DNA from: Thermogladius sp. | GTDB taxonomy: Archaea; Thermoproteota; Thermoprotei_A; Sulfolobales; Desulfurococcaceae | Direction of reading: 5' to 3' | DNA length: 64,000 bases | Assembly: GCA_022759365.1 (NCBI GenBank) | Contig: JAEMPJ010000001.1 | Coordinates: forward strand, 31,299-95,298 | In this document: in pieces, positions 33,600-49,654 of the stretch | Layout: each line of letters opens with the position of its first letter | Position numbering within the stretch: the stretch's first letter is position 1 | The notes under the pieces: generated by a model | Database searches by the model: none | What the model was told of the DNA's origin: nothing | What the model saw: the letters and a program-made list of their open reading frames with translations, nothing else | Program-made: the position numbers and the translations under genes

Positions 33600-33697
33600 G
33601 CCGCCGTAGCTCAGCCCGGTAGAGCGCCGGCCTTGTAAGCCCGTGTAAACAAGGCCCGGAGAGCCGGTGGTCGCGGGTTCAAGTCCCGCCGGCGGCT
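33600..33697 (+). tRNA. tRNA-Thr (anticodon TGT) with 24-nt intron (33638-33661)
   Basis: GCCGCCG/CGGCGGC acceptor, GCTC/GAGC D stem, CCGGC/GCCGG anticodon stem after intron removal, GCGGG/CCCGC T stem with TTCAAGT loop, U73; intron at 37/38. Confidence 0.9.
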
Positions 33698-47525: not shown

Positions 47526-48779
47526 TCACGGTATAAGTCTCGTCCTGTCTCTAACGAAAATAGCGGCTTCTCTTATATTGCTTAAACCCAGCATCTGCAT
47601 TAGGAGCCTCTCGACTCCTAGGCCGAACCCTCCGTGAGGGGGCATGCCATACTTGAATGCCTCCAGGTAGAATGAGAAGTTTGATGGGTCTAGGCCTTTT
47701 AGCTTCATAGCCTCCAGGAGTCTCTCGTACCTGTGTTCCCTCTGACCCCCGCTTGCGATCTCCAGCCCTCTATAGTCTAGGTCGAACTTCCTCGTATGGT
47801 ACCCGTCCTCCTCCCTCATATAGTAGAAGCCTGTTGAAGGCCATGGGAACCCTACGATAAAGTAGAGGTCGTGGCCTTTCTCAGCCATTATCTTACCCAG
47901 CTCCCTTTCAGCTTGGTCGCTTAGATCCTCGCTCTCTTGAACCTCTACACCATTGCTCCTCAGAATATCGATTGCCTCCTCAAACCTGAGCCTCTTGAAG
48001 GGCGTTGAAATCCGGGGTAGCTCCACGCCCAGTGTCTCCAGCTCCTCCTTATTGTTCTCCCTAACGTAGTTGACGATGAATGCCACGAGGTTTTCAAGCG
48101 TGTTTAAGACATCCTCTAAGCCGTCGATGAACCCTTGTTCAACGTCAATACCCCAGGACTCGTTTAAGTGCCTTGTAGTATTGAACTTCTCGGCCCTGAA
48201 GTAAGGTGTTATCTCAAAGACTCTTGGGAGGGATGATACAAGCATCTGCTTGTAGAGCTGGGGGCTCTGGCTTAAATATGCCTCCCTCTCGAAGTACTGG
48301 ACTTTAAATAGAGTGGCCCCTCCTTCAGCTCCGGCAGCGACTATTTTCGGCGTGTGAACCTCGATGAACCCGTTTTCGATTAGATACCTCCTCGCCGCCT
48401 CGATAACGCTCTGCCTTACCTTGAAGATAGCCTTCTCGAGGGGGTTCCTCAGTAACAGCCACCTGTATTTAATCCTTGTGTCGAGGAGCGAGGGTACTTT
48501 ACCTACAAGTTCAACCGGCAATGGCTCGCTGGGTTTCGAGTACACTTTAACGGACTTAACATTATACTCAACTCCCCTCTTGCTCTTCTGCGTCTCCGAG
48601 GGCTCGCCCTCGAAGCATATGGCTGAACCCAACGGTAGGTCTTTGAGTGTATTATATAACCCTGGATCTACGTCCTCCTTCCCCACGAGGACATATGGCT
48701 TTACGCTGGATCCTGAGACCTCTACTATGACAACCTTCCCGATGACCTTACTCCTCAGAACCCACCCGCAAAGCCTCAT
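47526..48779 (-). CDS. aspS: Aspartyl-tRNA synthetase (archaeal type)
   Basis: VHTPKIVAAGAEGGATLFKVQYFEREAYLSQSPQLYKQ, FRAEKFNTTRHLNE, EIASGGQREHRYERL, GLGVERLLMQMLGL. Confidence 0.93.
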   Translation of the reverse strand: MRLCGWVLRSKVIGKVVIVEVSGSSVKPYVLVGKEDVDPGLYNTLKDLPLGSAICFEGEPSETQKSKRGVEYNVKSVKVYSKPSEPLPVELVGKVPSLLDTRIKYRWLLLRNPLEKAIFKVRQSVIEAARRYLIENGFIEVHTPKIVAAGAEGGATLFKVQYFEREAYLSQSPQLYKQMLVSSLPRVFEITPYFRAEKFNTTRHLNESWGIDVEQGFIDGLEDVLNTLENLVAFIVNYVRENNKEELETLGVELPRISTPFKRLRFEEAIDILRSNGVEVQESEDLSDQAERELGKIMAEKGHDLYFIVGFPWPSTGFYYMREEDGYHTRKFDLDYRGLEIASGGQREHRYERLLEAMKLKGLDPSNFSFYLEAFKYGMPPHGGFGLGVERLLMQMLGLSNIREAAIFVRDRTRLIP

Positions 48780-48845
48780 ACACTACCGCACCACTCTTGC
48801 CGAATTGATCAAAATTTATAAGGGATCCATGGATTTATAATTATT

Positions 48846-48974
48846 AGTGGCCAAATACCCCTTAAGCCCTACCCGTATTTCGGGGTCTTGCTTAAGTGCG
48901 GGTCGTATCGAGGCTTTAACCCCGGATAAGGGTAGGGGTAGCCACCGTTAAGGTGGCGGGGGTAGGCCACAACA
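48846..48974 (+). ncRNA. Candidate structured ncRNA (three-way junction)
   Basis: Perfect helices: 48847-52/48965-70, 48856-61/48959-64, 48867-74/48930-37, 48881-86/48919-24, 48941-46/48952-57; TATA-like TTTATAA upstream. Confidence 0.6.
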
Positions 48975-49033
48975 TCCTTGAACCCTACTTATTAAAGCTG
49001 TAAACAAGTAGAGTTTCTACATGGAGGGTTTAC

Positions 49034-49654
49034 TTGAAGAATAAGAGCGGCAAGGGGAGGCACAAGCCGTTAACAGACTTCCTCAAGAAGCCCAGCGCTA
49101 CACAACCCAGTCAGCAAGCCCAACCACTACAACCTCAACCACAGGGGGAAGCCGGGGGAGGGGAGGGTTCGAATATAGAGGATATCGTGAAGCTCCTCAC
49201 AGAGAGCAAGAAGCAGAGGAAAACACCCCAGGTAAAAGAAGAGTCTGTAGAACCCAAGCCGAAGATCAGCAGAGAGTTGTTGGAGAAGATCGCGGCGAAC
49301 CAGTCGCTTAAGAGGCTTGAGTGTGATAACAACGGTGTCTGCAAGGACGGCATCAGGGTCGGCGGGAAACTCGTGGACGAGTATGGGATTGAGAGGAAGA
49401 GGGGTTTCCTCAACACGACGAGGCTTCCCATTTTCCTCGACTGGGTCTCCGAGACTGCTAGCGTTGAGAGGCTGACGGATAGAACCTTCGTGGTGAAAAC
49501 CGAGAGGGGCGCTCTAGCTGTTGTACCAGACCACTTCATATGCGAGCTCCAGTACAGGTATGGGATTACCATCCCCGGGCTTGATGAGAAGTGCAAAGAC
49601 TACAAGCCCAGTATTGGGAGGCAGTACAAGCCTAGGAGCAGGAGGAAAAAATAG
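49034..49654 (+). CDS. Hypothetical protein with N-terminal PIP-like motif and Pro/Gln linker
   Basis: GKGRHKPLTDFLKKP followed by QPSQQAQPLQPQPQGEAGGGEG and a folded C-terminal region. Confidence 0.6.
   Translation: MKNKSGKGRHKPLTDFLKKPSATQPSQQAQPLQPQPQGEAGGGEGSNIEDIVKLLTESKKQRKTPQVKEESVEPKPKISRELLEKIAANQSLKRLECDNNGVCKDGIRVGGKLVDEYGIERKRGFLNTTRLPIFLDWVSETASVERLTDRTFVVKTERGALAVVPDHFICELQYRYGITIPGLDEKCKDYKPSIGRQYKPRSRRKK

Follow-up and report, generated by a model that had tools for sequence, protein, structure and literature searches.

What lies in the gap between two divergent genes of this Thermogladius DNA, and does it make an RNA of its own? The gap is part of the window, by which we mean the whole 64,000-nt stretch of Thermogladius sp. 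DNA that was analysed, and the initial annotation had placed in it an unannotated structured RNA. Its neighbours are indeed divergent: a gene for aspartyl-tRNA synthetase (AspRS) on the minus strand, starting 70 nt before the RNA, and a gene for an uncharacterised protein on the plus strand. In relatives, the gap is not the trailing end of a protein-coding gene. The minimum-energy fold of 48847-48970 is a three-way junction with 35 pairs in named helices, in which every helix listed in the initial annotation, as well as the AAA bulge, is found in its place. The outer stem GUGGCC/GGCCAC (48847-48852 with 48965-48970) is followed, after the three-nucleotide bulge, by the helix UACCCCU/GGGGGUA (7 bp including one U-G), the 8-bp helix CCCUACCC/GGGUAGGG, the helix UUCGGGGU/ACCCCGGA (8 bp including one U-G) and the hairpin GCCACC-GUUAA-GGUGGC. 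The fold has an energy of -71.5 kcal/mol compared with -46.0 +/- 3.7 kcal/mol for 200 dinucleotide shuffles (z -6.8), none of which was as low, and the longer stretch 48840-48980 gave a z of -6.0. The reverse strand also folds, although less well (z -4.5).

Table 1. Features of the RNA locus and its neighbours, in window coordinates.
Feature	Position	Strand	Remarks
aspS, AspRS of the non-discriminating type, conserved divergent neighbour	47526..48779	-	
TATA box TTTATAAG of the RNA gene	48815..48822	+	8-mer starting 34 nt before GGCC; conserved in both congeners
Structured RNA, three-way junction, orthologue of the family-wide RNA	48847..48970	+	Fold; comparison with congeners and family
Outer strand GU of a possible outer helix; predicted leader	48847..48848	+	Pairs with AC 48972-48973 past a 3-nt bulge; alternative partner AC 48969-48970
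GGCC, 5' strand of the 4-bp central helix (GGCY/GGCY)	48849..48852	+	GGCY in nearly all orthologues
5' three-nucleotide bulge AAA (consensus ARN); predicted cut 48854/48855	48853..48855	+	Cut placed by comparison with the T. calderae tRNA-Pro intron
P1b 5' strand UACCCCU	48856..48862	+	Pairs with 48958-48964; P1b identical in Desulfurococcus-type G022 and G030
P2 arm: CCCUACCC/GGGUAGGG, internal loop, P2b, variable tip 48887-48918	48867..48937	+	Fold; pairs changed on both sides
Small hairpin GCCACC-GUUAA-GGUGGC	48941..48957	+	Positional equivalent of P4 in larger forms, compared by eye
P1b 3' strand GGGGGUA	48958..48964	+	Unchanged among the three Thermogladius-type sequences
GGCC, 3' strand of the 4-bp central helix	48965..48968	+	
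Possible second three-nucleotide bulge ACA; predicted cut 48970/48971	48969..48971	+	Begins with A throughout the 23 orthologues; outer pairs enriched at offset 3
TTATTAAAG, probably an independent promoter for the downstream gene	48989..48997	+	CTTATT(T/A)AAAG in both congeners
Uncharacterised 206-aa protein, downstream neighbour in the window, not in all orthologues	49034..49654	+	No Pfam or NCBIfam match

Two congeners, G001 and G002, carry the same gap between the same two genes, and their RNAs equal that of the window in length (124 nt in the aligned part) and share its junction. Covariation in homologous gaps, proposed at the outset as a check, was found in both in the form of compensatory changes. 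Across the three Thermogladius-type sequences, 100% of the cells in 26 pairs from four in-register helices are standard pairs, both sides have changed in 4 of the 26, and pairing falls to 36-65% when the partner is shifted by 1-3 columns. Of the outer 6-bp stem, which is present in the window, only the inner 4 bp (GGCC/GGCC) are kept in the two congeners. The TATA-like AATTTATAAGG noted upstream is also present (48813-48823) and puts a TATA box about 25-30 nt upstream of the RNA. Among the 23 orthologues described below, the best TATA-like 8-mer of the scanned region has a median start of -34 relative to the GGCY of the closing stem, with the top 8-mer away from this spacing in some genera (-48 in G030, -22 in G022). 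We used the usual archaeal spacing between TATA box and transcription start to place the start, which, with the box at -34, would fall a few nucleotides before GGCY. The compensatory changes, the RNA's own promoter and the lack of a match to any known family strongly support the reading as an unannotated structured RNA, and we regard the locus as almost certainly a real RNA gene. Read on the opposite strand, the TATA box (48812-48823) is almost as good a match and is plausibly spaced from the start of AspRS; its reverse complement could also serve AspRS, and the two genes may share a bidirectional promoter.

Comparison with Rfam 15 gave no match at the gathering threshold for the window RNA or its relatives, and for the window none even at E values up to 10; relaxed E values gave no credible match in the relatives either. 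SRP RNA and RNase P RNA, to which the initial annotation could not match the locus, were both found elsewhere in the genome, as was 5S rRNA, each above its cut-off; their likeness to this RNA is one of size class (5S) or of stable structural type. A C/D box RNA was rejected, box C (RUGAUGA) occurring in 0 and box D (CUGA) in 3 of the 23 sequences. The initial annotation had suggested an H/ACA-like guide from an ACA one nucleotide after the closing stem (48972-48974). This ACA is present in the window, and one relative gave a weak match to the model of HgcG/Pab40 (RF00064). HgcG is a two-motif H/ACA guide RNA whose transcript starts after an AT-rich promoter stretch (PMC4652768). The match, over the full length of the model, reached 16.7 bits against a cut-off of 77 and spent its first block on an AT-rich promoter stretch, and this lead was rejected. 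Moreover, an ANA box directly 3' of the stem (ACA or AGA) is absent from G001, G002 and most other orthologues, and inspection of the P2 tips by eye revealed no K-turn consensus: there is no consistent tandem G-A beside a three-nucleotide bulge, and a K-turn in the P2 tip was dropped as the sequences do not fit consistently. Unlike HgcG with its H/ACA motifs, the family of the window RNA has no conserved ACA and no conserved K-turn that is recognisable by eye. Because the ACA is missing from the congeners and most orthologues and no K-turn is seen by eye, the H/ACA suggestion is not supported, and we consider such a guide extremely improbable.

DNA similarity alone reaches only the two congeners, and a covariance model built from the three Thermogladius-type sequences (R1) gave no further significant matches. 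In the AspRS-adjacent slot, a homologous RNA was found in 21 further genomes from 12 more genera, so that the RNA is carried by 24 genomes, which represent 13 of the 16 genera initially listed for the Desulfurococcaceae; 23 of the 24 orthologues were analysed in detail, G025 not being recovered by the pattern that set the ends. The homologues are usually larger, with lengths of 139-179 nt and a four-way or three-way junction, and most have 163-176 nt and four helices at the junction. Smaller forms of 139-155 nt, without the third helix, occur in G008, G014, G020, G022, G028 and G030; the three-way reading of G014, G022 and G030 is manual and differs from the unconstrained fold. RNAalifold on a MAFFT alignment of nine larger RNAs gave 54 pairs, 24 of them with double changes. 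A covariance model (R2) found 13 family genomes at E values of 3e-10 or better and G014 at 6e-8; G005, G010, G022 and G020 came from a refined model (R3) run under laxer filters, and reading the AspRS upstream regions directly added G030, G028 and G008. Over these model searches, matches in further genomes had E values of 6e-15 to 3e-6. In a 13-sequence alignment, which, unlike the MAFFT alignment, was fitted to the model and whose counts therefore lean towards it, 97.5% of cells pair, with 29 double-change pairs and 121 double-change cells; none of 500 shuffles reached any of these measures, and a one-column slide drops pairing to 54-56%.

These comparisons bear on whether the locus might be a chance or mobile palindrome, i.e., a DNA hairpin or miniature element without RNA function, as its strong inverted repeats and the folding of its reverse strand could suggest. 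However, the element is single-copy in the 1.15-Mb genome searched and has been inherited vertically at one locus across 13 genera, with a promoter at similar spacing. Covariation is kept in the RNA strand, and reverse-strand model matches score far lower (32-49 bits versus 135-180 for the same loci). A palindrome of this kind is very improbable and is already contradicted by the comparative sequence data. The RNA was not found in the AspRS slot of genera g7 and g13 or of G012. A search of 400 genomes of the phylum gave nothing convincing outside the family; since its filters were strict and also missed known family members, absence outside the family is weakly tested. Two candidates from outside the family were rejected, as L125 apparently comes after the end of a transposase-like coding sequence and L126 consists of a simple repeat; L098 (E 0.048) is without an AspRS neighbour and lacks parts of the fold. 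The open-licence papers that were searched, some of them on archaeal circular RNAs, hold no report of this RNA family, and an earlier report may exist in a subscription journal. We describe what appears to be a previously undescribed RNA family common to most genera of the Desulfurococcaceae.

Two further observations were made during this comparison. A P4 loop motif, UGG-N(4-6)-CYGGG, recurs by eye in many of the larger orthologues, and the three Thermogladius-type sequences have lost it; it might be a protein- or RNA-binding site. In genus g7, the AspRS slot without the RNA contains a tRNA-Met-like gene with GC-rich inverted repeats on its flanks (L110-L112, L114, L117, L119, L120), with extra inserts in G029 and G037, which is possibly a permuted, split or intron-rich tRNA.

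Does the window copy belong to this family? Models R2 and R3 gave no significant match in G000-G002. Both were built from the larger four-way forms, and the three-way RNAs of G014, G020 and G022 were found despite this basis. As the Thermogladius copies are unscored by the family models, homology rests on synteny, anatomy and intermediates. Window and family share the divergent arrangement with AspRS and have the same P1 anatomy, consisting of GGCY, a three-nucleotide A-rich bulge, a P1b of 7-8 bp and a closing GGCY followed by A, and the P1b of the window (UACCCCY/GGGGGUA) recurs unchanged in the two genomes of the Desulfurococcus group (Table 1). The P1 signature occurs once in the window, at the RNA, and twice in 800 kb of G001, one of these being the RNA. 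Three-way forms, G014 among them, are intermediate between the window RNA and the four-way forms in a comparison made by eye. The window RNA is very probably a member of the family-wide RNA, and its copy is a shrunken, about 120-nt version of the larger form.

The neighbouring genes bear on whether the RNA acts in cis, either on the downstream gene as its leader or attenuator or on AspRS as a regulator. AspRS is divergent from the RNA, 62-259 nt away, in 22 of the 23 orthologues, and the downstream gene of the window begins 65 nt after the RNA, which would suit a cis element. However, the RNA strand is opposite to the AspRS transcript, and the downstream gene differs among orthologues, being the uncharacterised protein, the ribosomal protein L35Ae (G016, G018, G024 and G031) or others elsewhere. 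In all three Thermogladius-type genomes, this gene also has its own promoter-like TTATTWAAAG. Given the varying downstream gene, the RNA gene is most likely an independent transcription unit and not a leader. The varying downstream genes and the separate promoter also argue for action in trans: we judge it probable that this is the RNA of a trans-acting ribonucleoprotein rather than a cis element, an alternative that we regard as improbable. The linkage to AspRS may be regulatory or mere synteny. As to the downstream genes themselves, L35Ae lies 46-73 nt past the RNA in the four genomes that have it there and not in the others. Homologues of the 49034-49654 protein (L023-L051) occur across the Desulfurococcaceae, and several of them, in translations of gap sequences, have an N-terminal basic stretch followed by LTDFL, ITLDKFF or TLDMFL, motifs that resemble a PCNA-binding (PIP) box, and a conserved C-terminal half.

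The closing stem of the RNA has a distinctive geometry. P1a is a 4-bp helix, GGCY/GGCY, whose 5' strand is followed on its 3' side by a three-nucleotide bulge in nearly every orthologue; about half of the orthologues also have a possible second three-nucleotide bulge and a short outer helix. A canonical bulge-helix-bulge has a 4-bp helix between two three-nucleotide bulges, and the heterotetrameric crenarchaeal splicing endonuclease also accepts relaxed, one-bulge motifs (PMC6379350, PMC7714728). The prediction of outer pairing at offset 3, i.e., beyond a second three-nucleotide bulge, was fixed before the count; offsets and bulges were read by hand and orthologue ends were set by pattern. The mean run of pairs per genus was 1.67 at offset 3 versus 0.21-0.73 at the other eleven offsets, and 11 of the 23 genomes had two or more pairs there versus 0-6 at the other offsets in the range 0-11. 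Shuffled partners gave 4.0 genomes, and none of 2000 shuffles was as high as the 11 observed. When each genus was represented by one genome and only Watson-Crick pairs were counted, two or more pairs stood at offset 3 in 6.7 of 13 genera, compared with at most 2.7 at other offsets from 0 to 19 and 2.0 for shuffled partners. The outer paired bases differ by genus (GU/AC, GGC/GCU, AGC/GCU, GGU/ACC). An A follows the 3' GGCY in 23 of 23, and the first base of the 5' bulge is A in 21 of 23, the exceptions being G011, where the register is shifted by one, and G030. Where present, the outer helix has 2-5 bp; it is absent in genera g3, g5 and g16, which would therefore rely on the relaxed motif. In the window it has 2 bp and competes with the continuous 6-bp GUGGCC/GGCCAC, which the energy model prefers.

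The tRNA-Pro intron of T. calderae, read by hand, has the helix CUGG/CCGG with a bulge 3' of each strand (GGG and AGC), and the cut falls after the second bulge base; the orientation of the bulges is the same in the closing stem of the RNA. The genome encodes two endonuclease-family proteins, as expected for the heterotetrameric type. A tRNA with an intron-like insert at 33600-33697 (plus strand) was found by Rfam and missed by ARAGORN in its default mode; its insert gave no clean bulge-helix-bulge on folding, and the T. calderae tRNA introns were used as the yardstick instead.

From this geometry, we infer the following processing pathway. The RNA gene would be independently transcribed from a start a few nucleotides before GGCC, and the ends of the transcript would pair as a bulge-helix-bulge, with GGCY/GGCY flanked by the bulges A-R-N on the 5' strand and A-N-N on the 3' strand. 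Each bulge would be cut internally by the tRNA splicing endonuclease, and the ends would then be joined by a ligase, for example RtcB, into a circular RNA that is stable to heat. The window circle would comprise 116 nt (48855-48970), with P1b capped by the loop GGCYANN, and would act in trans, most likely as the RNA component of a small ribonucleoprotein. The circular SRP RNA of Thermoproteus tenax, which has its own TATA box and in which the tRNA splicing endonuclease cuts a bulge-helix-bulge formed between leader and trailer, may serve as a precedent for a structured RNA made by such excision (Plagens et al., 2015, PMC4731332). The two are alike in being structured archaeal RNAs with their own TATA box, and in our case bulge-helix-bulge ends and their processing are predicted. 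They differ in that the T. tenax RNA is a permuted SRP RNA with a leader of 23 nt, whereas the fold here is unrelated, the leader would be a few nucleotides long and SRP RNA is encoded elsewhere. Archaeal tRNA introns and pre-rRNA stems likewise have a 4-bp helix and three-nucleotide bulges on opposite strands, 3' of the helix strand (PMC7714728, PMC6379350), but the present stem lies outside tRNA and rRNA, and the RNA that it encloses is itself conserved and structured.

The predicted 5' exon, only about 8 nt long, counts against circularisation. All evidence for an RNA gene would apply equally to a linear trans-acting structured RNA whose bulged closing stem stays uncut, as a protein-binding site or stability element; the start predicted from the TATA box lies almost at the base of the stem, so that trimming would be unnecessary, and some genera are without the outer helix. 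A linear RNA leaves unexplained, however, why outer pairing occurs at offset 3 only, with sequences that differ among genera, and why an A follows GGCY on both strands. We consider the linear form a real possibility, albeit a rather doubtful one. The best explanation, to which we give an even chance, is an independent RNA gene, a reduced member of the family, whose product is excised, circularised and trans-acting; whether the RNA is cut and circularised at its closing stem is just as evenly balanced. Slightly less probable than that is the broader proposal of a dedicated circular non-coding RNA family, neither tRNA intron nor rRNA nor SRP RNA, that would be excised by the tRNA splicing endonuclease throughout the Desulfurococcaceae, as a 170-nt four-way or a 116-nt three-way circle with the processing site kept. 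Altogether, the structured RNA of the initial annotation holds and its H/ACA assignment does not, and neither the larger family-wide form nor the bulge-helix-bulge-like stem was visible to it.

The stable RNAs of crenarchaea beyond the universal ones are poorly known, and here a single-copy RNA with very strong covariation, unrecorded in Rfam, is kept at one locus in 13 genera. Its carriers include cultured, fully sequenced organisms, namely Staphylothermus, Desulfurococcus, Thermosphaera and probably Thermogladius. If the RNA is circular, the role of the splicing endonuclease would extend from the maturation of tRNA and rRNA to a dedicated class of non-coding RNA.
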